Source: an uncultured Eubacteriales bacterium
GTDB lineage: Bacteria; Bacillota; Clostridia; UBA1381; UBA9506
DNA: 34,319 bases
NCBI GenBank assembly: GCA_949299615.1
Contig: CASGBM010000006.1
Location: forward strand, 1-34,319
Reading direction: 5' to 3'
Under the pieces are notes generated by a model. That model saw only the letters and a program-made list of their open reading frames with translations, had not been told where the DNA came from and ran no database searches. Shown one piece after another: positions 6,644-32,732 of the stretch (position 1 is the first letter of the stretch; each line of letters opens with the position of its first letter). Made by a program: the position numbers and the translations under genes.

Positions 6644-6896
6644 GTAGGGTGCGGCCCCTGGACGCACCGTGAGTTTTGCACAAATCTGCGGATATGTACA
6701 ACGGGACGTCTATGAGCCGTCCCCTACGGCATACCCGTTTGATTGTGCAAAATTAATTTCATTTGCACATACGATTCGGTTTCGCACTAATCTATAAATT
6801 GGCACGAACTCCGTAGGGTGCGGCCCCCGGACGCACCGTGAGTTTTGCACAAAGCCGCGGATATGTACAGCGGGACGTCGAGGCGCCGTCCCCTAC
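6644..6896. repeat. REP/BIME-like locus I: two tandem composites
   Basis: Four 26-nt units: A-type at 6644-6669 (+), B-type at 6702-6727 (-), A at 6813-6838 (+), B at 6871-6896 (-). Each inverted A/B pair spans 84 bp with GTAG at both outer 5' ends; the two composites are 169 bp apart and share their 32-bp centres. They fill the convergent gap between the RHH gene and PFOR. This 511-bp gap (6534-7044) otherwise holds only the PFOR terminator. Confidence 0.9.
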
Positions 6897-6982
6897 GGCA
6901 TATCCATTTTATTTGTGTGAATTTTTTTGAAAAAGCGCCGTTCCCTTGCGGGTATGCTATGGTTTGGTTGAGTGCAGGATAA

Positions 6983-7023
6983 TAAAAAATCCCCTGTTGC
7001 GCCTATTTTGCGCAACAGGGGAT
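6983..7023 (-). terminator. Intrinsic terminator of PFOR
   Basis: A 14-bp perfect stem (6989-7002 with 7010-7023, core CCCCTGTTGCGC) with a 7-nt loop, followed on the minus strand by six T. It lies 22 nt past the PFOR stop. Confidence 0.95.
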
Positions 7024-7044
7024 GAAACAGGAATCCAAACAAGA

Positions 7045-10000
7045 TTAGTTGTTTGCCATTCTCTTATAGTTTTCGTAACGTTCGAGCAGATCTTTCTCCG
7101 CTTTGTCAAACAGCTCTCCGGCAACTTCCGGGAATGCGCGCTGCAGGAGGAGATAACGGTTTTCGCCTTCCATAAAGTCGCGGATTTTGCCCGTCGGCTC
7201 TTTGGAATCCAGCGTAAACGGATTCTTGCCCTCGTCCTTGAGCTGCGGATTGTATCTCCACAGATGCCAGTAACCGGCTTCTACGGCTTTCTTCTCTTCG
7301 TTGATGGTGTTCGACATACCAACTTTAATACCATGGTTGATACACGGAGCGTAAGCGATCACCAAAGACGGACCCGGATAAGCTTCTGCTTCTTTGATTG
7401 CTTTAATCGCCTGAGCCATGTTTGCGCCCAGAGCAATCTGTGCGACATAAACATAACCATAGGTGGTAGCAATCATGCCCAGGTCTTTCTTCTTCGTTCT
7501 CTTACCGGAAGCAGCAAATTTTGCAACTGCTGCGGTCGGGGTAGCTTTTGAGGACTGTCCGCCGGTGTTGGAGTAAACCTCGGTATCCACAACAAAGATG
7601 TTAATATCTTCGCCGGAAGCGATTACATGATCCAAGCCGCCGTAACCAATATCGTATGCCCAGCCGTCACCGCCGAATGCCCACTGAGAACGTTTGATCA
7701 AGAAGTCTTGACGGTCGTTGATTTCTTTCATTGCAGGGCTTGACAGGTCAGCATCTTTCAAAAGTGCGCTGATTTCTGCAGCTGCTTTCTTCGAAGCTTC
7801 TGCATCGTCCATACCGGCAATCCAAGCCTTAAACGCGTCTGCCAGTTTTGCATCCACGCCAGCTTCCATTGCTTCTTCCATACGTGCTTTTAAAGTCTTT
7901 CTCACTTTCTTAACAGCCAAAACCATACCAAGACCGTATTCTGCGTTATCTTCAAAGAGGGAGTTTGCCCAAGCCGGACCTTTGCCTTCCTTGTTCTTGC
8001 AGTATGGCATGCTCGGTGCGCTGCCGCCCCAGATAGAAGTACATCCGGTTGCGTTAGCGATCATCATTCTATCGCCGAACAGCTGTGTGATCAGTTTAAT
8101 ATACGGGGTTTCACCGCAGCCTGCACATGCGCCGGAGAACTCAAGCATCGGCTGTGCAAACTGAGAACCTTTTACGTTTCCTTTATCCATCAGGTTGTCG
8201 CGGATATCAAGCTCAGAAGCGTAATCCCAGTTAGCAGATTCTTTTTCAACCATTTCATCAACCGGTTTCATAACCAGAGCTTTTTCTTTTGCCGGGCAGG
8301 TCTGTACACAAACGCCGCAGCCTGCGCAGTCGCGCGGGCTGACCTGGATGCGGAATTTAAGACCCTTGAGCTGCGGGCCGGTAGCGTCTTTGACCACAAA
8401 ACCTTCCGGAGCATTCGCAGCTTCTTCTTCCGTCAAAAGGAACGGACGGATCGTCGCGTGCGGACAGACCAGCGAGCACTGGTTACACTGGATACAATTT
8501 TCCGGGATCCACTGCGGTACATTGATCGCGATCGTACGTTTTTCATAGCGTGCGGTGCCCTGTTCAAACGTACCGTCCTCGATGCCGACAAACGTGCTGA
8601 CCGGCAGCTTGTTGCCCTGCTGCGCGTTCACCGGGTCCGCAATCTTCTTCACGAAGTCCGGACGGTCGCCCTGCGCTTCTTTTACATCGTCTTTTGCATC
8701 TTTCCAGCTGGCCGGAACATCAATTTTTACCAAGGCGTCGAGCGCTTTGTCCACAGCCTGGCAGTTCATGTCAACAATCTTCTGGCCTTTCTTGCCGTAG
8801 GTGCGGTTAATCGCTTCTTTCAGGAGCGGAACGGCTTCGTCAATCGGGATAACGTTCGCGAGCTTAAAGAACGCCGCCTGCGTTACCATGTTGATTCTGC
8901 CGCCCAGGCCGATGCTGGACGCGATGTCAACCGCATTGATGGTGTAGAAATGGATGTCGTTTTCCGCAATGTATTTTTTCATATGGCCCGGGAGCTTTTC
9001 TTCCAGCTCTTCCGGCGACCATACGCAGTTCAGCAGGAACGTGCCGCCCTTTCTCAGGCCTTCCAGCACGTCGTACTGATAAATGTATGCCGGTTTGTGG
9101 CAGGCGATGTAGTCTGCTTCGTCCAAAAGGTAAGTGGATTTGATCGGCTTTTTCCCAAAGCGCAGGTGAGACATGGTTACGCCGCCGGATTTTTTGGAGT
9201 CGTAATCAAAGTAAGCCTGTGCATAAAGGTCGGTGTTATCACCGATAATTTTGATCGCGTCTTTGTTTGCACCAACCGTACCGTCGGAACCGAAGCCCCA
9301 GAATTTGCAGCGGGTGGTTCCTTCCGGAGCGGCATTGATTTTTTCGCCCAGCGGCAGAGAAAGATTGGTAACATCATCAACAATACCGATGGTAAAGCCG
9401 TTTTTCGGAGTATCGGAAGCAAGATTTGTGTAAACAGCAGCGATCTGTGTCGGTGTAGTGTCTTTGGAACCCAGACCGAAACGTCCGCCCACGATAACCG
9501 GAGCATTCTCTTTGCCGTAGAATAGGTTGCATACGTCAAGATACAGCGGTTCGCCCAGAGAACCAGGTTCTTTTGTTCTGTCCAAAACAGCAATTTTCTT
9601 TACGGTTTTCGGCAGAACGTCGAAGAAGTATTTTGCAGAGAACGGACGGTACAGGTGAACTTTTACGACACCGACTTTTTCGCCTCTTGCATTTAAGTAA
9701 TCCACAGTTTCTTCAATTGCTTCGCAAACAGAACCAATTGCAATAATCACGCGTTCTGCGTCCGGTGCACCGTAGTAATTAAACGGCTTGTATTCGCGGC
9801 CGGTGATCTTGCTGATTTCCTTCATGTAGTCAGCAACAATGTCCGGGATCGCTTCGTAATATTTGTTCGCAGCTTCTCTGCCCTGGAAGTAAATGTCCGG
9901 GTTCTGAGCTGTTCCGCGCAGTACCGGATGTTCCGGGTTCAGCGCCCTGTCTTTGAATTCTTTGATTGCATCGTAGTCAACCAATTTCGCCAGGTCTGCA

Positions 10001-10563
10001 TAGTCCATGACTTCAACTTTCTGAACTTCGTGAGAGGTACGGAACCCGTCAAAGAAGTGCAAAAATGGTACGCGGCCTTTGATAGCAGCCAGGTGAGCGA
10101 TTCCGCCCAGATCCATGGTTTCCTGTACACTGCCGGAAGCAAGCATAGCAAAACCAGTCTGGCGGCAAGCCATAACGTCCTGATGGTCGCCGAAGATGGA
10201 AAGAGCGTGTGCTGCAATAGCACGAGCGCTGACGTGGAATACTGCCGGAAGCAGTTCGCCGGCCATTTTGTACATATTCGGGATCATCAGAAGAAGTCCC
10301 TGAGAAGCCGTAAAGGTAGTCGTCAGCGCGCCGGCCTGCAGAGAGCCGTGAACCGCACCGGCAGCACCTGCTTCAGACTGCATTTCGCAGACGTCGACTG
10401 TTTGGCCGAAAATGTTTTTCTGACCCTTTGCGCTCCATTCGTCCACATATTCCGCCATGGTAGACGAAGGCGTAATCGGATAGATGGATGCCACTTCTGT
10501 AAACGCATAGGCGTTATGGGCAGCGGCAAAGTTACCATCCATGGTTTTCATTTTTTTTGCCAT
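7045..10563 (-). CDS. nifJ: Pyruvate:ferredoxin (flavodoxin) oxidoreductase
   Basis: Oxidatively decarboxylates pyruvate with CoA to acetyl-CoA and CO2, reducing ferredoxin; the central fermentation enzyme of strict anaerobes. The single-chain 1172-residue form matches homodimeric clostridial PFOR. Domains in order: N-terminal pyrimidine-binding domain with YPITPSSTMAE near residue 30, then the transketolase C-terminal-like domain. A ferredoxin domain follows with CIQCNQCSLVCPHA near 692 and CAGCGVCVQTCP near 747. The TPP domain starts at FSGACAGCGETPY near 815 and carries GDGWAYDIGYGGLDH near 967 with VDTEVYSNTGGQ. The start has AGGAGG about 9 nt upstream. It has its own consensus promoter and a strong terminator, so it is monocistronic. 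The reduced ferredoxin would feed the hydrogenase whose maturases lie at 28.5-32.5 kb. Confidence 0.98.
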   Translation of the reverse strand: MAKKMKTMDGNFAAAHNAYAFTEVASIYPITPSSTMAEYVDEWSAKGQKNIFGQTVDVCEMQSEAGAAGAVHGSLQAGALTTTFTASQGLLLMIPNMYKMAGELLPAVFHVSARAIAAHALSIFGDHQDVMACRQTGFAMLASGSVQETMDLGGIAHLAAIKGRVPFLHFFDGFRTSHEVQKVEVMDYADLAKLVDYDAIKEFKDRALNPEHPVLRGTAQNPDIYFQGREAANKYYEAIPDIVADYMKEISKITGREYKPFNYYGAPDAERVIIAIGSVCEAIEETVDYLNARGEKVGVVKVHLYRPFSAKYFFDVLPKTVKKIAVLDRTKEPGSLGEPLYLDVCNLFYGKENAPVIVGGRFGLGSKDTTPTQIAAVYTNLASDTPKNGFTIGIVDDVTNLSLPLGEKINAAPEGTTRCKFWGFGSDGTVGANKDAIKIIGDNTDLYAQAYFDYDSKKSGGVTMSHLRFGKKPIKSTYLLDEADYIACHKPAYIYQYDVLEGLRKGGTFLLNCVWSPEELEEKLPGHMKKYIAENDIHFYTINAVDIASSIGLGGRINMVTQAAFFKLANVIPIDEAVPLLKEAINRTYGKKGQKIVDMNCQAVDKALDALVKIDVPASWKDAKDDVKEAQGDRPDFVKKIADPVNAQQGNKLPVSTFVGIEDGTFEQGTARYEKRTIAINVPQWIPENCIQCNQCSLVCPHATIRPFLLTEEEAANAPEGFVVKDATGPQLKGLKFRIQVSPRDCAGCGVCVQTCPAKEKALVMKPVDEMVEKESANWDYASELDIRDNLMDKGNVKGSQFAQPMLEFSGACAGCGETPYIKLITQLFGDRMMIANATGCTSIWGGSAPSMPYCKNKEGKGPAWANSLFEDNAEYGLGMVLAVKKVRKTLKARMEEAMEAGVDAKLADAFKAWIAGMDDAEASKKAAAEISALLKDADLSSPAMKEINDRQDFLIKRSQWAFGGDGWAYDIGYGGLDHVIASGEDINIFVVDTEVYSNTGGQSSKATPTAAVAKFAASGKRTKKKDLGMIATTYGYVYVAQIALGANMAQAIKAIKEAEAYPGPSLVIAYAPCINHGIKVGMSNTINEEKKAVEAGYWHLWRYNPQLKDEGKNPFTLDSKEPTGKIRDFMEGENRYLLLQRAFPEVAGELFDKAEKDLLERYENYKRMANN

Positions 10564-10645
10564 TTTATGATCCTCCTCATTTCAATTGCGTAATTATTTA
10601 GGATATTATAAACCTGTAAAATTATCCATGAACACAACAAATTTT

Positions 10646-10674
10646 ATTATACCATATTTTACTGAAAATTTCAA
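10646..10674 (-). promoter_or_regulatory. Predicted PFOR promoter
   Basis: Minus-strand TTGAAA, 17-bp spacer, TATAAT, about 85 bp upstream of the PFOR start. Confidence 0.9.
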
Positions 10675-10776
10675 ATAATATTTAAAAAAAAGCAAATTCG
10701 GAAGATTGCTGAAAAGAAATGACTGTTTTCGTTCAAAACTTATGAAATACTGATAAGAAAAAATACAAATTAACAC

Positions 10777-10942
10777 AAAAAAACAGACTGTCCGGCAAAA
10801 AAATGCGGACAGTCTGAACGGCCGGTTATGATATTCAAAGGGCAGGGAAGATCCGGCTGCATCCTCCTGCTGATTAAGGGAGGTTGTCAAATAAAATGAT
10901 GTTACTAATTCCCCCTGAAAATACAAATCGCGCTATTTTCAC
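10777..10942 (-). ncRNA. Predicted structured small RNA upstream of PFOR
   Basis: A transcription unit without a credible gene: promoter P2 (10949-10977), about 166 nt of RNA, then a very strong terminator (CAGACTGTCCG at 10784-10794 with CGGACAGTCTG at 10806-10816, then T7). Visible hairpins from 5': TGAAAATA/TATTTTCA, then AGGGGG with CCTCCCT. A third hairpin, GCAGGAGGAT with ATCTTCCCTGC, has one bulge. CCTCC can pair either with GGGGG or with GGAGG, so two exclusive folds exist. It could be a free sRNA (a 6S-like RNA cannot be excluded) or an attenuated leader of PFOR, though PFOR has its own promoter beyond the terminator. No known Rfam class recognised. Confidence 0.55.
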
Positions 10943-10948
10943 ATTCTT

Positions 10949-11029
10949 ATTATACCAATTTTTAAAAAAGCCTTCAAGTAAATCGCAGAAATGATACAGA
11001 ATTGTAACCGGAGTGTAACATTACGTCAA
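10949..11029 (-). promoter_or_regulatory. Tandem promoters of the small RNA
   Basis: Two minus-strand promoters: upstream TTGACG-N17-TACAAT (11001-11029) and downstream TTGAAG-N17-TATAAT (10949-10977). Both have exact 17-bp spacers, and no coding gene starts before the terminator at 10784-10816. Confidence 0.75.
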
Positions 11030-11061
11030 AAGAGGAGAGGAGAATGAGAAAAAAATCCCGG

Positions 11062-11154
11062 GAAAAACAATACCGACATTGCAGTCGCAACGCCGGCACG
11101 GTTTATGGTACTATATGAAAGGGGGGGTAGGTAAACTTATAAGCATAATGCTCA
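11062..11154 (-). ncRNA. Predicted C-rich small RNA downstream of the mug-like gene
   Basis: Promoter TTTACA-N17-TACAAT at 11161-11189 is followed by about 93 nt ending in an 11-bp hairpin (11072-11082 with 11087-11097, loop GACT, G-U pairs included) and a U-rich tail (TATTGTTTTT). Between them is an unpaired CTACCCCCCC tract (11121-11130). C-rich loops in Firmicutes small RNAs such as RsaE pair with Shine-Dalgarno sequences; that role here is inference. A 24-codon plus-strand frame with a purine-rich RBS-like tract (11044-11118) overlaps it but is more simply the complement of the pyrimidine-rich tail. Confidence 0.55.
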
Positions 11155-11160
11155 GTATCT

Positions 11161-11189
11161 ATTGTACTATAAAAATACGAATTTGTAAA
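11161..11189 (-). promoter_or_regulatory. Promoter of the C-rich small RNA
   Basis: Minus-strand TTTACA, 17-bp spacer, TACAAT, starting about 50 bp past the stop of the mug-like gene. Confidence 0.75.
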
Positions 11190-11238
11190 TAGTTTATTCA
11201 AAAAAAATAAAAAAATACGGGAAATCTTTTTTTTATGC

Positions 11239-11733
11239 TCAAAACATTAAAATTGGCTGCAAAATAGCGGACCATTCCTCACACAATTGTTCTAAACGGT
11301 ACTGTGCATTTGCCGGACTGGTGGATGGGAGCGTATGGCGGGCAACAGAGTAGTGGTGTTTGCCGTATTTTCTGTAAATTTCTTCCGATTTTTTCCCATT
11401 AAAGCATAAAAGCTGAATATCTGCGGCTTGGAAAATGGGTGACAGGTCATTTGCAACCGGGTTTTTAATGGAAGCGTCAGAAGAACCGGTAATGTCACAG
11501 CTGGCGAGAGAATCCCAAAGAGCGATGTGGTGAGCAAGAAGCATCGTCCGCTTTTCTTCAATTGTCACGGGCACGGGGCAGGACAGCACATAGGCCATCA
11601 CTTTCCAAAACCGGTTTTGCGGATGCCCGTAAAAAAAATTTGCTTCGCGCGATTTTACAGAGGGAAAAGAACCTAAAATAAGAACCCAGCTATGCGCGTC
11701 GTAGAGCGGACCAAACGGATGGGCAAGCGGCAT
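11239..11733 (-). CDS. DNA glycosylase, hypoxanthine/uracil type (Mug/UDG superfamily)
   Basis: A 164-residue uracil-DNA glycosylase-superfamily protein, of the kind annotated as DNA-deoxyinosine glycosylase. It would excise deaminated bases to start base-excision repair. Motif I is VLILGSFPSVKSREANFFYG near residues 15-34, followed by HPQNRFWKVM. The segment IALWDSLASCDITGSSDASI near 75-95 matches the middle motif, and the C-terminal motif is LPSTSPANAQ near 140. I chose ATG 11733 (AGGAAG 8 nt upstream) because the longer frame adds 34 residues encoded by repeat and intergenic DNA. It lies 278 bp downstream of leuS on the same strand, separated by a repeat composite. Confidence 0.85.
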   Translation of the reverse strand: MPLAHPFGPLYDAHSWVLILGSFPSVKSREANFFYGHPQNRFWKVMAYVLSCPVPVTIEEKRTMLLAHHIALWDSLASCDITGSSDASIKNPVANDLSPIFQAADIQLLCFNGKKSEEIYRKYGKHHYSVARHTLPSTSPANAQYRLEQLCEEWSAILQPILMF

Positions 11734-11795
11734 GGTATCACTTCCTGCAAGAAATCTATTTTTAAATGCAATTCCACAAGCAAAGGATTTTGCTT

Positions 11796-11941
11796 GTAGG
11801 GAACGGCGCCACGACGTCCCGAAACGAAGTGCCACGGCGTCCTAAAATCAAGTACCGCAAGGGGCCTTCTGCCCCCATGGGGGCGTCCCGCTCCCATGGA
11901 AAAACTCAAGCCTTGCGGTGCGTCGCCTCGCCGCACCCTAC
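11796..11941. repeat. REP/BIME-like locus II with a central palindromic module
   Basis: B-type unit 11796-11821 (+) and A-type unit 11916-11941 (-) enclose 94 bp. The centre holds a perfect palindrome GCCCCCATGGGGGC (11871-11884) followed by GTCCCGCT, and CCGCAAGG/CCTTGCGG arms (11855-11862, 11911-11918). A related centre recurs in locus IV (28381-28404). It occupies the leuS to mug-like gap. Confidence 0.85.
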
Positions 11942-12011
11942 GAAGGAATTGCAAAAAAGAGAAGGGATCTGCAAAGCTGTATTTATGGAAAAAATACAGA
12001 TATAAGCAGAT

Positions 12012-14423
12012 TTATTTTACTACAATGTTAACCAATTTGCCAGGAACGCAAATCACTTTCACAATAGTTTTTCCTTCTGTTAATTCCTTAATTCGATCAT
12101 TTTCCAGCGCTGCTTTTTCCATTTCTTCTTTGGACAGGTCAGCGGAAATCATGATACGGTCTTTGACTTTGCCGTTGATCTGCGCAACAATTTCAATCGT
12201 GTCATCCACCGTTTTTGCTTCATCATACTGCGGCCAGCTGGCTTCGTGCAAAAAGCCGTCAAAGCCAGCAATCTGCCACATTTCTTCTGTCATATGCGGC
12301 GCGGTCGGATTTAAAAGCAGCAAAAACGTACGCAGTTCGCCGCGGGTAATTGCGCCTTTTTTATAAAATTCGTTTGTCAAAGACATTAAAGCCGCAATTG
12401 CGGTATTAAACTTCATGCGTTCTGTATCTTCCGACACTTTTTTTATGGTTTTGTGCATTAGGCCTTCCAATTCGGCGCTGTATCCTTCTTCATCCGTCAA
12501 AAAGTCCTGCATGTTCCAAACGCGTTCAATAAACCGGTAGCAGCCGCGCACGCCGTTAATGGACCACGGGGTGGACTGGTCAAACGCGCCGATGAACATC
12601 TCGTAGGTACGGAAGGTATCCGCGCCGAAGGTTTCTACCATGTCGTCCGGATTCACCACATTGCCGCGGGATTTGGACATTTTTTCGTTGTTTTCGCCGA
12701 GGATCATCCCATGCGAGGTGCGCTTTTGGTACGGCTCGGGCGTGTTTACGACGCCAAGGTCAAAGAGCACCTTGTGCCAGAACCGGGAGTAGAGCAAATG
12801 CAGCGTGGTGTGCTCCATACCTCCGTTATACCAATCCACGGGCATCCAGTAATCAATGTTTTCCTTCGATGCCAAAGCTTCGCTGTTATGCGGGTCAATA
12901 TAGCGCAAATAATACCACGAAGAGCCCGCCCATTGCGGCATGGTATCGGTTTCACGCTTTGCCGGCGCGCCGCATTTCGGACAGGTGGTATTGACCCAGT
13001 CGGTCATTTTAGCAAGCGGGGATTCGCCGTTATCCGTCGGCTCGTAGTTATCCGTTTCCGGCAAAGTCAGCGGGAGCTCGCTTTCATCGAGCGGCACCCA
13101 ACCGCAGTGTTCGCACCATACCAGCGGAATCGGTTCGCCCCAGTAGCGCTGGCGGGAGAAGACCCAGTCGCGCAGTTTGTAGTTTACTTTTTTCGTCCCA
13201 ATATGGTTTTTTTCTAAATAATCAATCATAGCGGGAATGGCGGCTTTTACTTCCATACCGTCTAAAAACCCGGAATTGATCATTTTGCCGCTGGCGGTAT
13301 CGGTATAGGCGGCTTCCTGCACATTTTCGCCGCCGGCAACTACCTCGATAATCGGCATGCCAAATTTTTTTGCAAATTCCCAGTCACGGTCATCATGCGC
13401 CGGAACAGCCATAATCGCGCCCGTTCCATAGCTCATTAAAACATAGTCGGACAGCCAGATCGGAATCTCTTTGCCGTTCACCGGATTGACGGCGCTAAGG
13501 CCATCGAGCATGACGCCGGTTTTTTCTTTCGCCATTTCCGTGCGTTCAAACTCTGATTTTCGAGCGGCGGCGGCGCGGTATTGCATTGCCTCATCATAGT
13601 TTTTAATTTTATCTTTATACTTATCCACAAACGGATGCTCCGGGCTCAACACCATATATGTTGCGCCAAACAGCGTATCCGGGCGCGTGGTATATACGCG
13701 GATACAGTCGTCCGTTCCGGCAATTTTAAAGTCCACCTCAGCGCCTTCTGATCTGCCGATCCAGTTTTTCTGCTGGATTTTCACCTTTTCTATGTAGTCT
13801 AAGCCGTCCAAATCATCAATGAGCCGCTGGGCGTATTCTGTGATTTTCAGCATCCACTGGCTTTTGTTGCGCTGCACAACTTCGCTGCCGCAGCGTTCGC
13901 ACACACCGTTTACGACCTCTTCGTTCGCAAGGCCCACCTTGCAGGATGTACACCAGTTAATCGGCATTTCCTGTTTATATGCCAAGCCTTTTTTAAAGAG
14001 CTGGAGGAAAATCCACTGCGTCCATTTATAGTAATTTTCATCCGTGGTGTTGATTTCGCGCGACCAGTCAAAAGAAAAGCCGATGCTTTTCAGCTGGCGC
14101 TTAAAATTGGCGATATTGTCCGCGGTCACTTTTTTCGGATGAATTTTGTTTTTGATTGCAAAATTTTCTGTCGGCAGACCGAATGCGTCCCAGCCGATGG
14201 GGTAAAGGACGTTATAGCCCTCCAGGCGCCGTTTGCGCGCAATAATATCCAGCGCGGTATAGCTTCGCGGATGGCCGACATGCAGCCCGTGCCCCGATGG
14301 GTAAGGAAACTCGACCAGAGCATAATATTTCGGCAGAGTTTTGTCCTCTTTTGCCCGAAAGGTTTCTTCCGAATACCATTTGTCCTGCCATTTTTTTTCT
14401 ATCTTGTGAAAATCATAATCCAT
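12012..14423 (-). CDS. leuS: Leucyl-tRNA synthetase
   Basis: Class I synthetase that charges tRNA-Leu. 803 residues, typical for the bacterial form. The HIGH-type motif [20 protein letters not shown] is near residues 40-59. A zinc-binding Cys insert ([21 protein letters not shown]) is near 160-180, and the CP1 editing domain holds the threonine-rich [19 protein letters not shown] near 245. The KMSKS motif [14 protein letters not shown] is near 583, followed by the anticodon-binding domain. AAAGGAG lies 11-17 nt before ATG 14423. It follows rsfS by about 40 nt in the same direction, the last housekeeping gene of the trxA-to-leuS run. Confidence 0.98.
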
Positions 14424-14464
14424 TCCTGTGTAACTCCTTTATATCAAATAATTCATGATTTATT

Positions 14465-16058: not shown

Positions 16059-16072
16059 AAAGCACCTGCTCC

Positions 16073-20745: not shown

Positions 20746-20941
20746 GTAGGGTGCGGCTCCCAGACGCACCGCAAAATGATGCACTATATTGCGTTTATCA
20801 TACGGGACGTCGGGGCGCCGTCCCCTACAGCGCATATCCATATTGGTTGCACATAATTGTATGGATTGCGCATACAATTCGGTTTAGCACAATGAGGAAA
20901 TTTCGCACAAACATCGTAGGGTGCGGCTCCCAGACGCACCG
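20746..20941. repeat. REP/BIME-like locus III: one composite plus a solo A unit
   Basis: A unit 20746-20771 (+) with B unit 20803-20828 (-), then a second A unit at 20916-20941 (+) 170 bp after the first and without a B partner. The 60 bp before each A unit is a near-identical direct repeat (GGTTTAGCACAATGA and TCGTAGG in both). It fills the dnaE to ymdB gap (20680-21077), which otherwise holds only the ymdB promoter. Confidence 0.9.
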
Positions 20942-23904: not shown

Positions 23905-23905
23905 T

Positions 23906-23941
23906 GGGACAATCATCGGGGGTTGTCCCTCTTTCTATTTT
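23906..23941 (+). terminator. Intrinsic terminator of the membrane protein gene
   Basis: GGGACAA (23906-23912) pairs with TTGTCCC (23923-23929), followed by TCTTTCTATTTT. It starts one nucleotide after the stop. Confidence 0.85.
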
Positions 23942-24044
23942 GAACCATTGCGGCAAGCCTAGTGAGTAGGAAAATCCTGCGGCGAGGGATATTCGTTTCC
24001 TTTCGAGTATGGCTGCACATGGTGATTCGAGGGAGGAAATGGAA

Positions 24045-25268
24045 TTGAAAGCAGAAATTATTGCTGTTGGGACAGAACTTTTGTTAGGAGATATTTTAAA
24101 TACAAACGCCCGTTTTTTATCACAGCAGCTATCCCTTTTAGGGCTTGATGTTTATTATCAGGAAGTTGTCGGGGACAACCCGGATCGGATGAAAGAGGTG
24201 ATTTGCCGTGCGGTGGACCGCTCTGATGTAGTGGTGCTTTCCGGCGGCCTTGGACCTACGGACGACGATTTGACCAAGGAGATGGTGGCGCAATATTTTG
24301 AACTGCCGCTGATTTTCCACGAAGAAATTATGGAGGAAATGACGCAGTATCTTCACGGCAACGTGCCGCCTGCCAACAAAAAACAAGCGTATATCCCCGA
24401 GGGGGCAAAGATTATCCATAATTCATACGGTACCGCTCCGGGAATCCTTTTAGAACGCGGCGGGAAAATTGTGATTCTGCTTCCCGGTCCGCCGCGAGAA
24501 TTAGAGCCGCTCTTTTTAGAGCAGGTAAAGCCTTATCTTCGGGCGAAATCGGATTTTGTGATGAAATCCAAGGTGATTCGCCTGTTCGGCTCGGGGGAAT
24601 CCGCCATAGCGCAAAAGGTCAAAGACCTCATGGAAAGCGCAAACCCAACGCTTGCACCGTATGCCAAAGACAGCGAGGTCACGCTGCGTATCACCGCCAA
24701 GGCGCATACCGAAGAGGAAGCGGACGGCTGCATCGCCAAGATGTATGAACAGGTGGCGGATCGGGTAGGAGAGTATATCTACGGTTTTGATGATGACGAA
24801 ATGAAAATTGTGGTCTGCCGCATGCTCAAAGAAAGAGGACTGACAATTGCAACGGCAGAATCGTGCACAGCAGGAATGCTGTCATCAATGATTGCGGACA
24901 TTCCCGGCGCTTCGGCTGTGCTTTTTGAAAGTGTGGTTACGTATTCCAACGAGGCAAAGGAAAAATACCTCGGAGTTCGGCACGAAACGCTGGAACAATT
25001 TGGTGCGGTGAGCCCGCAGACTGCGCAGGAAATGGCGGAAGGGATCCGGCGCGCATCCGGCGCAGATTTTGGCATCGGGATCACAGGGATTGCCGGACCG
25101 GACGGGGGCACGCCGGAAAAACCGGTTGGGTTGGTTTATCTTGCGGTGGCGTATGCCGGTAAAACAGTGGTGAAAGAACTGAACCTTTACGGCTCCCGGC
25201 GCAAGGTGCGTTATGCATCTTGCCTGCATGCGCTCAACGAGGTTAGAAAAATACTAAAATCTGCTTGA
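24045..25268 (+). CDS. cinA: CinA family nicotinamide-nucleotide amidase / competence-damage protein
   Basis: Two-domain CinA, 407 residues. The N-terminal MoaB-like (COG1058) domain begins AEIIAVGTELLLGDILNTNA and has VLSGGLGPTDDDLTKE near 63. The C-terminal CinA domain (deamidates nicotinamide mononucleotide) has TAESCTAGMLSSM near 270 and GITGIAGPDGGTPEKPVGLVY near 345-365. I favour TTG 24045, 8 nt after GGGAGG and giving the usual MKAEIIAVG start; the ATG at 24039 is in frame but only 2 nt from the SD. It is followed by recA, a gene order common in Gram-positive bacteria; recA's promoter overlaps the cinA stop. Confidence 0.95.
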   Translation: MKAEIIAVGTELLLGDILNTNARFLSQQLSLLGLDVYYQEVVGDNPDRMKEVICRAVDRSDVVVLSGGLGPTDDDLTKEMVAQYFELPLIFHEEIMEEMTQYLHGNVPPANKKQAYIPEGAKIIHNSYGTAPGILLERGGKIVILLPGPPRELEPLFLEQVKPYLRAKSDFVMKSKVIRLFGSGESAIAQKVKDLMESANPTLAPYAKDSEVTLRITAKAHTEEEADGCIAKMYEQVADRVGEYIYGFDDDEMKIVVCRMLKERGLTIATAESCTAGMLSSMIADIPGASAVLFESVVTYSNEAKEKYLGVRHETLEQFGAVSPQTAQEMAEGIRRASGADFGIGITGIAGPDGGTPEKPVGLVYLAVAYAGKTVVKELNLYGSRRKVRYASCLHALNEVRKILKSA

Positions 25269-25293
25269 CGAATCGAACGGGATACGGTATAAT
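25265..25293 (+). promoter_or_regulatory. recA promoter
   Basis: TTGACG, 17-bp spacer, TATAAT. The -35 overlaps the cinA stop codon. Confidence 0.9.
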
Positions 25294-25299
25294 AAAACA

Positions 25300-25311
25300 G
25301 AACAGATGTTC
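25300..25311 (+). promoter_or_regulatory. LexA (DinR) SOS box at recA
   Basis: GAACAGATGTTC fits the Gram-positive SOS consensus GAAC-N4-GTTC and lies just past the -10, where LexA would block transcription until DNA damage. Confidence 0.88.
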
Positions 25312-25338
25312 TAAACGGCAGATAAGGAGAAATTAAAT

Positions 25339-26424
25339 ATGGTGTTAGACAGAAAAATAGGAGCAGGGAAAAAAGCAGATTCGGAAGCTGGCGGAAACCG
25401 GAAAGAAGCGCTGGAGATGGCGATGAGCCAGATTGAAAAAACGTTTGGAAAAGGCGCGGTTATGAAACTGGGCGAAGAAACGCGGATGAATGTGGAGTCC
25501 ATTCCCACCGGTTCGCTCAGTTTGGATTTGGCTCTTGGAATCGGCGGTCTTCCGCGCGGCAGAATTGTGGAGATCTACGGACCGGAATCATCGGGGAAAA
25601 CAACGCTGGCACTGCATGCGATTGCAGAGGCACAGCGGCTTGGCGGCGATGTGGCGTTTATCGACGCTGAGCATGCGCTGGATCCGGTGTATGCGAAAAA
25701 CTTGGGCGTGGATGTGGAAAACCTCATTGTATCTCAGCCGGATACGGGGGAACAGGCGCTTGAGATTGCGGAAATGCTGGTGAGAAGCGGCGCAATTGAC
25801 GTCATTGTTGTCGATTCTGTGGCAGCGCTGGTGCCCAAAGCAGAAATTGAAGGAGAAATGGGAGATTCCCATGTCGGTCTGCACGCCCGTCTGATGAGCC
25901 AGGCGCTGCGCAAGCTTGCCGGCGTAATTAATAAATCTAATACGATTGCAATTTTTTTGAACCAGCTGCGGGAAAAAGTTGGCGTTATGTATGGAAACCC
26001 GGAAGTGACAACCGGCGGCCGCGCGCTGAAGTTTTATGCGTCAGTGCGCCTTGAGGTGCGCAAACAAGAACTGATTAAGCAGGGGACAGAAGTGGTTGGC
26101 GTCCGCACCAAGGTAAAAATTGTGAAAAATAAAGTGGCGCCTCCGTTTAAAGAGGCAGAGTTTGATATTATGTACGGAGAGGGTATTTCCAAAGAAGGGT
26201 CTATTTTGGATGTTGCAACTTCCATGGATATTCTGCAAAAAAGCGGAACGTGGTATAATTACGGCGAAATGCGCTTAGGGCAGGGAAGGGAAAATGCAAA
26301 AAAATTCTTAAAGGAAAATCCACAAATTCGTGATGAAATTGAAGCAAAAGTGCGCAAAGCGCTGGAGCCGAAACACGGCGAAAAAGGACAGGAAGAGGAC
26401 TTGGGAGATGAAAATTCAAATTAA
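25339..26424 (+). CDS. recA: Recombinase RecA
   Basis: Forms ATP-dependent filaments on ssDNA for strand exchange, and triggers LexA self-cleavage. 361 residues. [10 protein letters not shown] near 37, Walker [10 protein letters not shown] near 81-89, Walker [11 protein letters not shown] near 155, loop L1/L2 region with [21 protein letters not shown] (starts near 170; central H-A-R-L-M-S-Q visible), and [20 protein letters not shown] near 215-234. A charged C-terminal tail is present. AAGGAG precedes the ATG. The last 17 nt overlap the deaminase gene. Confidence 0.99.
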
Positions 26425-27694
26425 AAACGCGCAGATTATCACCATGGACGAAGGGCGCGTGATCAAAAATGGCTGCATTCGGATTCATCAAGAGACGATT
26501 GCATATGTAGGGACGGAAACCGCGCCGGAGGAAGAGTTTGACCGCGCGATTGACGCGCGCGGAGCGATTGTGCTGCCAGGCTTGGTTAATGCGCATACTC
26601 ACGCAGCTATGACGCTTTTTCGGGGTTTTGCCGATGACATGACGCTGGAGTCATGGCTGTTTGACCACATTTTTCCGGCGGAAGACAAGCTGGACCAGGA
26701 GGCGGTTTATTGGGGTTCGCTTTTAGCTTGCGCGGAAATGATTCGCAGCGGGACAACACTGTTTGCAGATATGTATTTTATGAATGAAAGCACAATCCGT
26801 GCGGTGATAGAAAGCGGCTTAAATGCTAATGTTGCCCGGTGCGTTACCGGGATGAATACGGAATACCGCAATGGCTTAGAGGAAGCAAAAGAGCTGTATA
26901 CGGAGTACCACGGCGCACAAAGCGGAGCGCTTCGGGTAGATTTTTCAGCACATGCCGTCTATACCTGCGGCCGTGAAACGCTGCGGGCGGTCGCGCAGGC
27001 AGCAGAAAGCCGCGGTGCAGGCGTTCAGATTCACTTGAGTGAAACCATGAAGGAAAACAGGGATTGCTACCGTCAATACGGGAAATCACCGACAGAGGTT
27101 TTCCGTGATATGGGCATGTTTGAAAATCCTACCAACGCGGCGCATTGCGTATATCTGAGTGAAAATGACATGGATATCTTAGCAGAAAACCATGTGGGTG
27201 TATCACACAATCCGATTAGCAACCTAAAACTTGCCAGCGGTGTTGCCAATGTAAAGGAAATGCTGGAAAAAGGAATTTGTGTGGGCATAGGAACAGACGG
27301 GACGGCAAGCAACAATGCGCTCAATGTTTTTGAAGAGATGAAAACAGCGGCGGTTTTGCAAAAAGGGATGCGGCTTGACCCAACGCTGATTGATGCGCAA
27401 AACGCGCTGGAGATGGCAACGGTTCGCGGTGCGCAGATTTTGGGGCGCGGCGGCGAACGCGGGCAGATTAAAAAAGGTCTGCGTGCGGATCTTATCATTT
27501 TGGATAGTGATTCCCCAAATTTGTGGCCGGTGTATCATCCTGCTTCTACGGTAGTATACAGCGCAAATGCAGGGGATGTAGTGACCAGCATTATTAATGG
27601 GAAAATTGTGATGGAAAACCGCGAGATGCTTACTATTGATATGGAGAAAGTGAAAGCCGGCGTAGAAAAATCGCTTGCGAGAATGGATATTTAG
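26408..27694 (+). CDS. mtaD: 5-methylthioadenosine/S-adenosylhomocysteine deaminase
   Basis: Amidohydrolase that deaminates MTA and SAH, feeding recycling of the SAM by-products. 428 residues from ATG 26408, starting [17 protein letters not shown]. Metal-site [21 protein letters not shown] near 60-80, [12 protein letters not shown] near 205, [11 protein letters not shown] near 238, and [20 protein letters not shown] near 297. A longer upstream frame overlaps recA and has no RBS. It overlaps recA by 17 nt, so coupling is likely. The specificity between MTA/SAH and other nucleosides is a family-level inference. Confidence 0.9.
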
Positions 27695-27696
27695 GC

Positions 27697-27725
27697 TTGC
27701 ACTGCTGCTGTTTTTATGATAAAAT
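27697..27725 (+). promoter_or_regulatory. Promoter of the orphan structured transcript
   Basis: TTGCAC, 17-bp spacer, TAAAAT, starting 3 nt after the mtaD stop codon. Confidence 0.65.
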
Positions 27726-27731
27726 ATATAA

Positions 27732-27884
27732 AGCATTACATAATAGATAAAAAAATTTCCAACCTTAAAGAGATTCTGCGAGGAAGGAAAATATAGAAAT
27801 CCATTTTGTTCTGTACCGGAAGAAATTCTGACGGGAAAGGCAGCGAAAAAGAAGATGCGGCTGCCCTTAGCGGGTAGCCTTTTT
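27732..27884 (+). ncRNA. Orphan structured RNA with alternative terminator/antiterminator
   Basis: About 150 nt from the promoter at 27697-27725 to a terminator (GGCTGCCC at 27859-27866 with GGGTAGCC at 27872-27879, then T5). GGCAGC at 27839-27844 can instead pair with GCTGCC at 27860-27865, which is the 5' arm of the terminator, so the two folds exclude each other, as in riboswitches. Near the 5' end UUUCC-AA-CCU and AGG-AA-GGAAA form a stem with a symmetric internal loop. No protein-coding frame. The next gene is 670 bp away behind repeats, so it may be an sRNA, or a leader displaced from the hydrogenase operon by repeat insertion. No known class recognised. Repeats follow to 28460; 28461-28557 holds only a weak promoter-like sequence. 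Confidence 0.5.
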
Positions 27885-27962
27885 GTATAGAAATTATTTG
27901 TGCATAGCCAAATCGGGTGTGTAAATGATATAAATTTCGCGCAATTAAAATGGATATATATC

Positions 27963-28460
27963 GTAGGGGACGGCTCATAGACGTCCCGACGTTTGCATCC
28001 CTAGCAGAGTGCGAAAAATAGCGGTGCGTCCAGGGGCCGCACCCTACGGAGGAAGTGCGAATTTACATCATTGTGCGAAATGAAATGGAGTGTAAAAATG
28101 AAATCAGTTGCGCACAATGAAACCGGATATGCACCTGTAGGGGGCGGCTCATAGACGTCCCGACGTTTGCATCCCTAGCAGAGTGCGAAAAATAGCGGTG
28201 CGTCCAGGCGCCGCACCCTACGGAGGAATTGCGAATTTAAAAATAACAGCTAGGCCAATGGATTTGCAAATGAAATTAATTGAGCACTAACAAGACAGAC
28301 ACGTGTAGGGGACGGCGTTTCGACGTCCCGTAAATTAATTTTGCACGATTTAATGGTTGTATGGAGGCGTCCACGAGGGTCTGCCCCATGGGGTACGTCC
28401 CGCTGTTTTATCCGCAACATAGTGCGCAATTTATCGGTGCGTCTGGGAGCCGCACCCTAC
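27963..28460. repeat. REP/BIME-like locus IV: three tandem composites
   Basis: Six units: B 27963-27988 (+), A 28022-28047 (-), B 28137-28162 (+), A 28196-28221 (-), B 28305-28330 (+), A 28435-28460 (-). Periods are 174 and 168 bp. The first two composites are 85 bp with near-identical centres (CCCTAGCAGAGTGCGAAAAA in both). The third is 156 bp and carries the GCCCCATGGGG module (28383-28393) seen in locus II. It lies between mtaD and the hydrogenase maturation operon. Confidence 0.9.
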
Positions 28461-28557
28461 GGAGAAAGTGCCGATTTATAAATCATTGTTAAAAAAGCGG
28501 ATAAGCGAATACAAATAACTCAAACAACGACAATATAGACTTTAAAAGGAGAGAGTC

Positions 28558-28812
28558 ATGGAACAGGAGAGCAGAATCGCCCTGATTGGGATTATCGTAG
28601 AGGACAGAAACCAGACAGCAGAGCTCAATGCCATCCTGCACGAGTACGCGGAGTTTATCGTGGGGCGCATGGGGATACCGTACCGGGAGAAAAAGATCAG
28701 CGTAATTTCCGTTGTGCTTGACGCACCGCAGGATACAATTAGCGCACTGTCGGGGAAATTGGGGAAAATGCAGGGGATTGGAGTTAAAACGATTTATGCG
28801 AAATCAAAATGA
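28558..28812 (+). CDS. TM1266-type [FeFe]-hydrogenase system regulator
   Basis: 84-residue ferredoxin-fold, ACT/NikR-C-like protein of the family found next to hydE/hydF/hydG (TM1266 family, putative iron-only hydrogenase system regulator). SRIALIGIIVEDRNQTAELN at the start and HEYAEFIVGRMGIPYREKKI near residues 28-47 are characteristic. It has no DNA-binding domain, so a ligand-sensing or accessory role is more likely than direct repression. AAGGAGAG precedes the ATG. It overlaps the hydE start by 17 nt and heads the operon. Confidence 0.88.
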   Translation: MEQESRIALIGIIVEDRNQTAELNAILHEYAEFIVGRMGIPYREKKISVISVVLDAPQDTISALSGKLGKMQGIGVKTIYAKSK

Positions 28813-29788
28813 GTTTGCACAAATGACGATAGAGCAGCTGGCAGACTTTTTGCGAATGCCGCAGGAAGAATTTGAACCGGTACGAAAGATGGCGGATCGG
28901 GTGCGAAAAGAACAAAAGGGCGATGAGGTTTTTATCCGCGGCATTATTGAATTTTCTAATTATTGCCGCCGAAGGTGCCGGTATTGTGGCCTAAATTGCG
29001 AAAACACTTCCTGTGTGCGCTACCGTATGGCGGAAGAGGACGTTGTGGAGACAGCGCAGGAGGGCTTTCGGGCGGGGTACCGAACTGTTGTTTTGCAGTC
29101 GGGAGAAGATCCGTATTTTACTAAGGAAATTCTAGGACAGATCGTAAAAGAAATTAAACGAACAACTAATCTTGCGGTTACGCTCTCGTGCGGTGAGCTT
29201 TCGGACGAAGAGTATGCGTATTTAAAGCAATGCGGCACGGACCGCTACCTGCTCAAGCACGAAACCGCAGACCGTGCGCTCTATGACCGGATGCATCCTT
29301 GCGGAACGCTGGAAAACCGGGTGCACTGTTTGAAAACTTTAAAAAAGTTAGGCTATGAAACCGGCGGCGGTTTTATGGTCGGTTTGCCGGGACAGACAGA
29401 AGAAATTTTAGCTAAGGATTTGCGGCTTTTGGCGGAAATCCCCTGTGATATGGCGGGAATCGGCCCGTTTTTGCCGCATCCCAAGACGCCGCTTGCCCGA
29501 GAAATGGCAGGCAGCGCCGAGCTGGTGGAGCGGTGCGTGGCGCTTGCCAGGCTAATGCTTCCGGCAATCAATCTTCCGGCGACAACAGCGCTTGAAGTGC
29601 TTTTAAAAGGCAGCCAGGAAAGAATTTTCCGCTGTGGCGCCAATGTTATTATGCGCAAGCTGACACCGAAAAATGTCAGAAAATATTATGAAATCTATCC
29701 TGCTGATCTTGAGCAGATGAAAGATATTAAAACCGAAAGAAAAGAACTTGAACAATTTATCAAACATTTGGGCAGAACCCCGAATTAA
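28796..29788 (+). CDS. hydE: [FeFe]-hydrogenase H-cluster radical SAM maturase HydE
   Basis: Radical SAM enzyme of H-cluster assembly; it works on the Fe(CO)2(CN) synthon made by HydG toward the diiron subcluster. 330 residues. The radical SAM cluster motif is CRRRCRYC (Cys57, Cys61, Cys64), with SGEDPYFTKE near 102 and GGGFMVGLPGQTEE near 188-201. DMAGIGPFLPHPKTPLA follows near 220. ATG 28796 is favoured; the longer frame is only the shadow of the TM1266 gene, and ATG 28823 is an alternative. hydG follows after 16 nt. Confidence 0.95.
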   Translation: MRNQNEFAQMTIEQLADFLRMPQEEFEPVRKMADRVRKEQKGDEVFIRGIIEFSNYCRRRCRYCGLNCENTSCVRYRMAEEDVVETAQEGFRAGYRTVVLQSGEDPYFTKEILGQIVKEIKRTTNLAVTLSCGELSDEEYAYLKQCGTDRYLLKHETADRALYDRMHPCGTLENRVHCLKTLKKLGYETGGGFMVGLPGQTEEILAKDLRLLAEIPCDMAGIGPFLPHPKTPLAREMAGSAELVERCVALARLMLPAINLPATTALEVLLKGSQERIFRCGANVIMRKLTPKNVRKYYEIYPADLEQMKDIKTERKELEQFIKHLGRTPN

Positions 29789-29804
29789 ATAAGGAGATGG
29801 CAAG

Positions 29805-31208
29805 ATGAAACGGGCAGAGGAATTTATCAATCATAAAGAAATTATGGCGTCGCTAGCGGACGCCAAAGAAAAGGCAAAAGATCTGGCTTATGTCAACAGT
29901 ATTTTGGACAAGTGTGAAACCTGCACGGTGCTTTCGCACCGCGAAGCCGCAGTTTTATTAGAGTGTGAGGACAAAACCATACGCGAAAGAATGCGCACGG
30001 TGGCAAACAAGATTAAACAGAGTATTTACGGGAACCGTATTGTTTTATTTGCGCCGCTTTACCTTTCTAACTATTGTGTGAATAACTGTAAATACTGCGG
30101 CTTTCAGCATTGCAATGAAAAATTGCCGCGGCGCAAGCTGACGCAGGAAGAAATCCGCCGCGAAGCAATTGCGCTTCAGGATATGGGGCATAAACGGCTG
30201 GCGCTGGAGGTCGGCGAAGACGATGTCAACTGCCCGCTGGAATATGTTTTGGAGTCGATCAAGACGCTTTACAGTATTAAGCATAAAAACGGAGCCATCC
30301 GCCGGGTCAACGTTAACATTGCCGCCACAACGGTAGAAAATTACAGAAGGCTCAAAGAGGCAGGAATCGGAACGTATATCCTGTTTCAGGAGACATATCA
30401 CAAGCCGACGTATGAAGCCATGCATCCGTCCGGCCCGAAGAGCAATTATGCTTATCATACAGAAGCGATGGACCGCGCCATGCAGGGCGGGATTGACGAT
30501 GTCGGCGTAGGTGCGCTGTTCGGGCTTTACGACTACAAATACGAAACCATAGCTTTAATCATGCACGCGGAGCATTTGGAGGAGGAATTTGGCGTGGGAC
30601 CGCACACGATCAGCGTGCCGCGCCTGAAACCGGCTTCCGGCGTGACGCTTGAAAACTATCCGTATCTGGTGGATGATGAATCGTTTAAAAAATTGGTTAC
30701 GGTTCTCCGTTTGAGCGTTCCGTATACAGGGATGATTATATCCACGCGTGAAACCAAAGAAATGCGCAACGAGCTTTTGCATGTTGGAATTTCCCAGATC
30801 AGCGCAGGTTCCTGCACCGGAATCGGCGGCTATGCGGAAGAAAACAGAACCGAGGAAGATACGGCGCAGTTTGAACTGGGCGATCACCGTGACATGGACC
30901 AGGTGCTGACGGAATTAATTGAGGACGGCTATATTCCAAGTTTCTGCACCGCGTGCTACCGGGAGGGAAGAACCGGCGAACGCTTTATGCAGCTTGCCAA
31001 AGCGGGGCAGATTCATAATGTCTGCCAGCCGAATGCGCTCATTACGCTGAAGGAATTTTTGACGGATTACGGCTCGGAGCGGGCGCGGGCCGCCGGAGAA
31101 AAACTGTTTGCACGGGAACTGGAACGGATTGGAAACGAAAAAGTGAAAGAAAAAACCAAAGAATATCTGAAAAAGATTGAAAACGGAGAGCGAGATTTCC
31201 GTTTCTAG
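29805..31208 (+). CDS. hydG: [FeFe]-hydrogenase maturase HydG, tyrosine-cleaving
   Basis: Radical SAM tyrosine lyase that makes the CO and CN- ligands of the H-cluster. 467 residues. N-terminal cluster motif CVNNCKYC (Cys91, Cys95, Cys98); core sequence ALEVGEDDVNCPLEYVL near 130-146, and HTISVPRLKPASGVTLENYP near 267-286. The C-terminal auxiliary cluster motif is an exact CX2CX22C (Cys381, Cys384, Cys407), the site of the cysteine-bound dangler iron, which separates HydG from ThiH. AAGGAG precedes the ATG. Confidence 0.97.
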   Translation: MKRAEEFINHKEIMASLADAKEKAKDLAYVNSILDKCETCTVLSHREAAVLLECEDKTIRERMRTVANKIKQSIYGNRIVLFAPLYLSNYCVNNCKYCGFQHCNEKLPRRKLTQEEIRREAIALQDMGHKRLALEVGEDDVNCPLEYVLESIKTLYSIKHKNGAIRRVNVNIAATTVENYRRLKEAGIGTYILFQETYHKPTYEAMHPSGPKSNYAYHTEAMDRAMQGGIDDVGVGALFGLYDYKYETIALIMHAEHLEEEFGVGPHTISVPRLKPASGVTLENYPYLVDDESFKKLVTVLRLSVPYTGMIISTRETKEMRNELLHVGISQISAGSCTGIGGYAEENRTEEDTAQFELGDHRDMDQVLTELIEDGYIPSFCTACYREGRTGERFMQLAKAGQIHNVCQPNALITLKEFLTDYGSERARAAGEKLFARELERIGNEKVKEKTKEYLKKIENGERDFRF

Positions 31209-31254
31209 TATTTGCAGAAAAGAAAATTTTCGCAAACAGACAGGAGGAAAAAAT

Positions 31255-32463
31255 ATGGCGGCAGACAGTCTGGCACAAACGCCTATGTCCATGCGGCTGA
31301 CGATTACGGTATTCGGAAGAACAAACAGCGGAAAATCGTCTTTGATTAATGCGCTATTGGGACAGCCTGTTTCACTGGTTTCGCCTGTCGGCGGAACCAC
31401 GACAGATCCCGTGCGTAAAACGATGGAGCTGTATCCGGTGGGACCGTGCGTGTTGATCGATACGGCAGGGTTTGACGATCAAACAGAATTGGGAGAACTG
31501 CGCATGGAGCGCACGCGCAAAGTTTTGGATCAAACGGATTTGGCGGTGCTGGTTATAAGTGCGCAGGACGATGACTTAGAGAAGGAAGAAAAATGGCTAT
31601 CTGCCATACAAGAGCGCTCGATTCCTGTTTTTGGAGTGCTGAATAAAAGCGATTTGGTTAAAAATCCGCAGGAGATGGCGAAAGAGCGGAAAAAGCGGCT
31701 TTCGATTCCGTTTGTGTGTGCCAGCGCGGCATGCGGCGAAGGGATTGACGCGATAAAAGCGGCGATTGTGGAACATGCGCCGCAGGATTTTGAGCTGCCG
31801 TCTATCGTGGGGCATTTGGTGGAGGATGGCGACAGCGTGCTTTTGGTCATGCCGCAGGATATTCAGGCGCCGAAAGGGCGCTTGATTCTGCCGCAGGTTC
31901 AGGTGACGCGCGATCTTTTAGATCATGGTGCGGTCATCACGAGTGTGACGGCGGATAAGCTGGAGGCGGCGCTTGCGGCGCTGAAAGAACCGCCCAAGCT
32001 GATCATAACCGATTCGCAAGTGTTTGGGCTGGTGTATGAGAAAAAACCAAAAGAGTCGCTTTTAACTTCTTTTTCGGTGCTTTTGGCGCGCTACAAGGGC
32101 GATATCGGCGCGTTTTTAGACGGCGCGGCGCAAGTTGACCGACTAAAAGAAACCGACCGGGTTTTAATTGCAGAGGCATGCACGCATAATCCGCTTGACG
32201 GCGATATCGGCAGAATAAAAATCCCGAAACTATTGCGGAAGAAAATCGGCGAGGGCTTGATGATTGACGTAGTGGGCGGAAATCAGTTTCCTGAGGATTT
32301 GTCCCAATATGCACTGATTGTGCATTGCGGTGGATGTATGTTTAACCGGCGCTATCTGTTAAACCGCATCCGGGCAGCAAAGGGGCAGAATGTGCCGATT
32401 ACAAACTATGGGATTTTGATTGCGAAACTGAATGGAATTTTAGAGAAAATCACGGTGCAGTAA
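31255..32463 (+). CDS. hydF: [FeFe]-hydrogenase maturation GTPase HydF
   Basis: GTPase and scaffold that assembles the diiron subcluster and delivers it to apo-hydrogenase. 402 residues from ATG 31255 (CAGGAGG upstream). Walker A GRTNSGKSSL at residues 21-30, switch GGTTTDP near 48, DTAGFDD near 69, NKSD near 127. The C-terminal [4Fe-4S] site is CTH (Cys309, His311) with HCGGC (Cys358, Cys361). It lies last in the TM1266-hydE-hydG-hydF operon. No hydrogenase structural gene (hydA) lies in the window. A repeat unit starts 18 nt after its stop, and no U-tract terminator was seen. Confidence 0.97.
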   Translation: MAADSLAQTPMSMRLTITVFGRTNSGKSSLINALLGQPVSLVSPVGGTTTDPVRKTMELYPVGPCVLIDTAGFDDQTELGELRMERTRKVLDQTDLAVLVISAQDDDLEKEEKWLSAIQERSIPVFGVLNKSDLVKNPQEMAKERKKRLSIPFVCASAACGEGIDAIKAAIVEHAPQDFELPSIVGHLVEDGDSVLLVMPQDIQAPKGRLILPQVQVTRDLLDHGAVITSVTADKLEAALAALKEPPKLIITDSQVFGLVYEKKPKESLLTSFSVLLARYKGDIGAFLDGAAQVDRLKETDRVLIAEACTHNPLDGDIGRIKIPKLLRKKIGEGLMIDVVGGNQFPEDLSQYALIVHCGGCMFNRRYLLNRIRAAKGQNVPITNYGILIAKLNGILEKITVQ

Positions 32464-32481
32464 AAAATATGCGATTCTTTC

Positions 32482-32732
32482 GTAGGGTGCGGCCCCTGGA
32501 CGCACCGCGAATTTCGCACCATTCTGCGGCTACGAACAACGGGACATCTATGAGCCGTCCCCTACGGCACGTCCGGCTGGATTGTGCGCAATTTATTGTT
32601 TGCACCGCCCCTTGCGATATGCCTATTTTGTTTGTGCGTAATGGATTTATTTGCATACCCGTTTAGTTTGCAGTTGGTTTTAAATTTGCACTTACTCCGT
32701 AGGGTGCGGCGCCTCGACGCACCGTCCCCTAC
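32482..32732. repeat. REP/BIME-like locus V: one composite plus a fused half
   Basis: A unit 32482-32507 (+) and B unit 32540-32565 (-) form an 84-bp composite. A third A unit 32699-32724 (+) is joined directly to the last 8 nt of a B unit (TCCCCTAC, 32725-32732), as if the centre of a composite had been deleted. It fills most of the 335-bp gap between hydF and the decarboxylase gene; nothing else was seen there. Confidence 0.9.

Follow-up and report, generated by a model that had tools for sequence, protein, structure and literature searches.

GTAG-tagged REP hairpins in inverted, unlike pairs, and a RAYT gene flanked by them, in a Clostridia genome

The intergenic regions of a 34,319-nucleotide stretch of DNA from an uncultured Eubacteriales bacterium (GCA_949299615.1, contig CASGBM010000006.1; hereafter the window), which is contig 6 of a 208-contig, 2.39-Mb genome, carry 18 copies of a short imperfect hairpin preceded by GTAG. 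These units are very probably repetitive extragenic palindromes (REPs) of the GTAG superfamily, organized as heterotypic pairs of the kind called REP doublets forming hairpins (REPINs) or bacterial interspersed mosaic elements (BIMEs), and serving as substrates of a single cognate REP-associated tyrosine transposase (RAYT) encoded elsewhere in the genome (G000:C84:7704-8198). The original prediction, made from the window alone, had proposed REP/BIME elements moved by a RAYT enzyme; the observation was confirmed in each detail tested, and the reading is supported by the copy number, the inverted pairing of two subtypes and the presence of a RAYT gene flanked by the units.

Each unit reads, in order, GTAG, GG-xx-CG, an unpaired G, C-N, three loop bases, N'-G, an unpaired A, CG-x'x'-CC and a final G, and the stem occurs as two subtypes, TG/CA (type A) and GA/TC (type B). 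Scanning both strands of the window with the two templates GTAGGG(TG or GA)CGGC-N5-GACG(CA or TC)CCG recovered exactly the 18 units originally predicted, each with 0-1 mismatches, while the same scan of three shuffled windows returned 0-3 matches even when 6 mismatches were allowed. REP elements are defined as imperfect palindromes of 20-40 nt with an unpaired 5' GTAG, and the units described here are 26 nt long, with an invariant GTAG and a conserved G.A mismatch.

The units were not confined to the window. The exact pattern, with 21 fixed bases, matched 77 times in the 2.39-Mb genome and not once in a reversed control. The covariance search that the original prediction had called for, with a model made from the 18 window units, gave 105 genome matches at E<=0.01 on many contigs. 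Nor did we encounter the other outcomes set beforehand as telling against the prediction, there being no family match in the window from Rfam and no insertion sequence (IS) with matching ends in the genome.

Their arrangement was equally regular. Neighbouring units (within 400 bp) were inverted in 36 of 38 cases, and all 36 join A to B: 20 stand tail to tail and 16 head to head, most spacers being 32-35 nt long in the former and 80-89 nt in the latter. The remaining two neighbours lie on the same strand and have probably lost, or hide, the intervening unit. Upstream of type A units some 20-40 bp are conserved, with TTTTaaaTTTGCACttcCTcC before GTAG, and upstream of type B units conservation is weaker; these flanks bring the repeated unit to about 170 bp, in line with the 169-174-bp period of the window arrays. 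What is mobile or copied is probably the A>...<B pair, that is, two unlike hairpins tail to tail about a spacer of ~33 nt, with ~20-40 bp of conserved flank and a period of ~170 bp. We also observed GCAC-like motifs inside the spacers, besides the TTTTaaaTTTGCACttcCTcC found upstream of type A units genome-wide; these motifs are possibly the site of a host protein or a part of the mobile unit.

The original prediction took compensatory change in the stem as proof that the fold, not the sequence, is selected. In an alignment of the 18 window units (13 distinct rows), pairing was found in 98.1% of stem cells as against 83.8% after shuffling, the covariation score was 0.410 as against 0.157 for the shuffles, and sliding the partner column by 1-3 positions brought the score to 0.155 or below. 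Three pairs changed on both sides: the apical pair and both of the stem pairs that distinguish A from B. The stem and apical pairs thus do covary, but A versus B inside one genome amounts to one contrast of two states that many copies have inherited, and does not count as many events. The apical pair genome-wide and the comparison across genomes provide support that is more independent. Among 78 units genome-wide the apical pair is G-C in 27, T-A in 26 and C-G in 24, with a single mismatch (G-G) at 28196-28221, which had correctly been singled out as the sole broken pair in the window. In other genomes, distinct REPs that share this architecture show four Watson-Crick types at each of stem pairs 3 and 4, and the mismatch is purine-purine in all 24; the 100% pairing of these REPs is circular, because the scanner that found them demands pairing, a circularity that does not extend to the purine-purine mismatch or to the variety of pairs. 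Folding of tail-to-tail pairs with DNA parameters gave the proposed hairpin, including the G.A mismatch, in many of the units folded, and in some pairs gave instead one long hairpin spanning A and B. Heterodimers have been suggested to limit the formation of long hairpins (PMC3733652), and strict A/B pairing may do so here, although the folds are mixed on this point.

The original prediction had also called for a Y1 or RAYT gene flanked by the same units, and such a gene was found. A Y1_Tnp search of the genome gave three matches, on contigs C174, C71 and C84; the first two are IS200-type fragments, and the third (G000:C84:7704-8198) is an intact frame of 165 aa encoding an HUH/Y1 protein. In the locus extracted around it (L034) the gene lies at about 1702-2199 on the minus strand and is flanked on either side by A and B units, at 1468-1551 and 2308-2459; a RAYT flanked by its own REPs in this way is the REPtron arrangement. 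Autonomous IS200/IS605 elements are recognized by their ends together with tnpA in several copies, and this genome contains a single RAYT match. The protein has HIH at 81-83 and, in the motif YIDTN, Y145 and N149, with the Y-x3-N spacing of E. coli Y115/N119; its Q-D-H-R region is intact and aligns to the residues by which E. coli TnpA-REP contacts GTAG (residue roles from PMC6006769). It matched PF01797 above the cut-off and the NCBIfam model for REP-associated tyrosine transposases, NF047646, at E 8.8e-18, and the latter also matched 21 of 21 relatives at E<=0.001. A single-sequence search of the PDB with the RAYT gave no match; a profile of the 21 relatives found E. coli TnpA-REP (4er8) at 8e-11, with other Y1 transposases at ~1e-3.

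These findings bear on whether the units are instead derivatives, resembling miniature inverted-repeat transposable elements, of an ordinary IS with terminal inverted repeats, as elements of ~170 bp with conserved flanks and inverted ends might suggest. The A and B ends differ from each other, however, no IS with such ends was found, the contigs of the two IS200-type fragments held no exact unit among the matches listed, and the RAYT is the sole transposase gene found with units beside it. We therefore regard an origin of this kind as very improbable.

The units are strongly intergenic, with only 3 of 93 (weak units included) overlapping an open reading frame (ORF) of >=150 aa genome-wide. The only such overlap in the window is with a 156-aa ORF, which is probably spurious and runs on the strand opposite to the flanking UDG-family and leuS genes. 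The five intergenic clusters described in the window were all found; the two genes bordering each cluster share a strand, and the clusters sit after PFOR, leuS, dnaE, an amidohydrolase gene and hydF, at times right after the stop codon (22 bp for hydF, 70 bp for dnaE). Such positions would suit host elements selected as terminators or as mRNA-stabilizing hairpins at 3' ends, the spread by a RAYT being incidental or past; roles of this type have been proposed for REPs (PMC3733652), and selection at the RNA level would likewise keep covarying hairpins. On the other hand, the hairpins are followed by no consistent U-tract, a terminator would have no use for the conserved 5' GTAG, which is not part of the stem, termination needs neither strict A/B alternation nor arrays of up to 6 units, and the same units flank a RAYT. 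We consider this explanation quite improbable.

For REP pairs served by the RAYT, a probable mechanism can be drawn from the model of the E. coli and Stenotrophomonas enzymes. TnpA-REP enzymes, including that of E. coli, cleave single-stranded REPs at CT (or CA), apparently guided by GTAG (PMC8266576). By analogy, the RAYT would recognize the 5' GTAG and the imperfect hairpin in single-stranded DNA, its tyrosine would cut beside the hairpin, and the strand would then be rejoined, so that A/B pairs would be copied into intergenic sites. What the data show is the family with its copy number, structure and arrangement, the presence of the enzyme gene and of units flanking it, and the joint segregation of REP and RAYT on a tree; recognition, cleavage, transposition and any benefit to the host are inferred.

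RAYT matches were present in 23 of 41 related genomes, as against 8 of 150 drawn across the phylum, and in the GTDB collection a relative is encoded by at least 570 candidate stretches. We analyzed the best 80 of these (39-59% identity; L095-L174, with the RAYT match at 4001 in most), nearly all of which come from metagenome-assembled genomes of Clostridia, mostly from the gut. Phages yielded one RAYT match in 50,697 records, and therefore no sign of a phage origin; the one window locus searched against plasmids had no match. On a tree of the RAYTs, built without the columns of the REPs that lie within the genes and having few columns and many weak forks, REP architecture (mismatch present or absent) required 7 changes versus 20-29 with shuffled labels, and the four-base stem core 31 versus 47-58, so that REP and RAYT co-segregate. 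On this tree L095 and L100 form a group with the RAYT of the window genome (support 81), and their REPs have the architecture of the window units; the sister RAYT, L095, has near-identical REPs within its gene, and the genome of L095 has 26 matches to a type-B-like pattern.

Among the other genomes, one (G036, 92% complete) has 33 dispersed units of the same architecture and no RAYT match, and its RAYT may have been lost or left unassembled. Three Clostridia genomes (G006, G190 and G194) have 4-7 RAYT matches each rather than one, where RAYTs have been described as single-copy (PMC8049555); the matches are mutually divergent, and we rejected the idea that they are recent copies. Pairs of units 150-180 bp apart in G194 were likewise rejected as extra RAYT copies: the four examined are REP pairs set one inside another and contain no RAYT coding. 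The genome of L117 has elements of ~200 bp in which a REP pair of one family encloses a pair of another, the inner family varying between elements (L204:345-550, L205:313-506, L206:317-516 and L207:317-521).

Of the 80 relatives, 78 have GTAG hairpins within the RAYT reading frame or at its edge, and in 63 the gene holds a forward as well as a reverse unit. The usual sites bracket the HUH codons, one being close to codon 40 and the other directly behind HUH; the forward units, 66 of 68 of which begin in one common codon phase, are translated as V-G and then a peptide that varies greatly. Hairpin arms within one RAYT gene are 93% alike, compared with 57.5% between genes, and none of 2000 permutations gave a value as high. 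Inverted pairs in the gene are partly known already: in TnpA-REP subclass 2.4, REP insertions in the tnpA-REP gene generally lie between HUH and Y, and an 8-aa insertion at the end of helix B is mentioned but is not called a REP (PMC6006769). This insertion may correspond to the first site, near codon 40. The RAYT of the window genome has no hairpin in its gene, and short decayed REP traces are possible at both sites.

From these data we tentatively propose that the RAYT gene of gut Clostridia could be a self-contained unit with an in-frame inverted pair of cognate REPs, kept alike by concerted change, and that the enzyme could act on its own gene or transcript, either in autoregulation or with the gene as a master copy seeding dispersed REPs; the window genome would then be derived, its in-gene pair having decayed and external A/B units having taken over. 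We think this possible, though doubtful.

Congeners of the window genome hold 0-5 units of the same architecture, and given this rarity the expansion of the units looks lineage-specific. The scarcity in congeners, the apparent decay of the in-gene REPs of the RAYT and the degeneracy of some units, which are the weakest covariance-model matches, would also fit a RAYT-REP pair that arrived once, expanded and is now inactive, leaving decaying remnants. This is unlikely in our view, as 77 units are still exact over 21 fixed bases, the frame and catalytic residues of the RAYT are intact and many units are identical copies, which together suggest recent copying; recent movement is what we infer.

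Several observations nevertheless weigh against the reading of the units as substrates of this RAYT. The enzyme scores 64.6 bits against the curated NF047646 cut-off of 80, which is an annotation threshold and not a biological definition, and the position of W94 in E. coli TnpA-REP is F. The REPs of its relatives lie mostly inside the RAYT gene and not beside it, and the flanked layout is therefore atypical for this clade. Finally, no empty site or strain polymorphism was demonstrated at the one locus tried in three congeners, dnaE-ymdB, where synteny was broken in two and a contig ended in the third.

REPIN doublets in Pseudomonas fluorescens are mostly of like REPs. The pair described here differs in always joining A with B; like the REPINs, it is an inverted doublet scattered through intergenic regions and linked to a RAYT (PMC3116915). 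It also resembles E. coli BIME-2, which alternates Y and Z2 REPs, and its TnpA-REP (4er8): in both systems GTAG-tagged imperfect hairpins lie between genes, two unlike subtypes alternate in inverted order with two linker lengths, and REPs flank one cognate RAYT. The clostridial units differ from BIME-2 in phylum, in stem sequence and in their regular 170-bp period, and their RAYT is just remotely related in sequence to the E. coli enzyme (profile E 8e-11). In tag, size, dimer organization, preference for heterodimers and intergenic location they resemble families 1-24 of the GTAG superfamily (PMC3733652). The RAYT probably belongs to TnpA-REP subclass 2.4, which is equivalent to Bertels RAYT group 4 and is scattered over phyla (PMC6006769). 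It shares with this subclass a patchy phylum distribution, a G-C rich stem foot and the in-frame REPs in the RAYT genes of its relatives; it differs in having REPs outside a gene without intact in-gene REPs, and type A has just two G-C pairs before a T-A.

Within the window, the first cluster comprises units at 6644..6669 (+; type A, apical C-G), 6702..6727 (-; type B, T-A), 6813..6838 (+; type A, C-G) and 6871..6896 (-; type B, G-C). They form a BIME-like array, A> <B A> <B, with a period of ~169 bp and approximate outer limits of 6604..6940, between the 3' end of the PFOR gene (7045, minus strand) and spoVT (minus strand). Further units lie at 11796..11821 (+; a type B variant, AA/TC, with apical G-C) and 11916..11941 (-; type A, G-C), and at 20746..20771 (+; type A, T-A), 20803..20828 (-; type B, G-C) and 20916..20941 (+; type A, T-A). 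A second array, B> <A B> <A B> <A, with a first spacing of 174 bp and approximate outer limits of 27920..28500, lies between the amidohydrolase gene and a gene for a TM1266-like hydrogenase regulator, with units at 27963..27988 (+; type B, T-A), 28022..28047 (-; type A, C-G), 28137..28162 (+; a type B variant, GG/TC, with one G-U and apical T-A), 28196..28221 (-; type A, the broken G-G pair), 28305..28330 (+; type B, G-C) and 28435..28460 (-; type A, T-A). The last units are at 32482..32507 (+; type A, C-G), 32540..32565 (-; type B with one stem change, GATG for GACG, and apical T-A) and 32699..32724 (+; type A, G-C). REP arrays border both sides of 28558-32463, which holds the TM1266-like regulator, two radical SAM genes and hydF, apparently an [FeFe]-hydrogenase maturation cluster.

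The original prediction described REP elements as known mainly from Proteobacteria; they were already known as well in Cyanobacteria, Chloroflexi and the Planctomycetes-Verrucomicrobia-Chlamydiae (PVC) group; the survey of GTAG-REPs covers these phyla together with Proteobacteria, with no Firmicutes in its text (PMC3733652). We found no earlier account of REPs or RAYTs in Clostridia or Firmicutes in the openly licensed literature, although one may exist. The REP/RAYT system, known mainly from Proteobacteria and Cyanobacteria, occurs also in Bacillota, and the present results place a complete system in Clostridia, a group missing from the published GTAG-REP survey. The dozens of RAYT/REP pairs with differing stems constitute a natural test set for the coevolution of a domesticated HUH enzyme and its hairpin, and the in-frame REP pairs raise the testable question of whether RAYTs regulate themselves.

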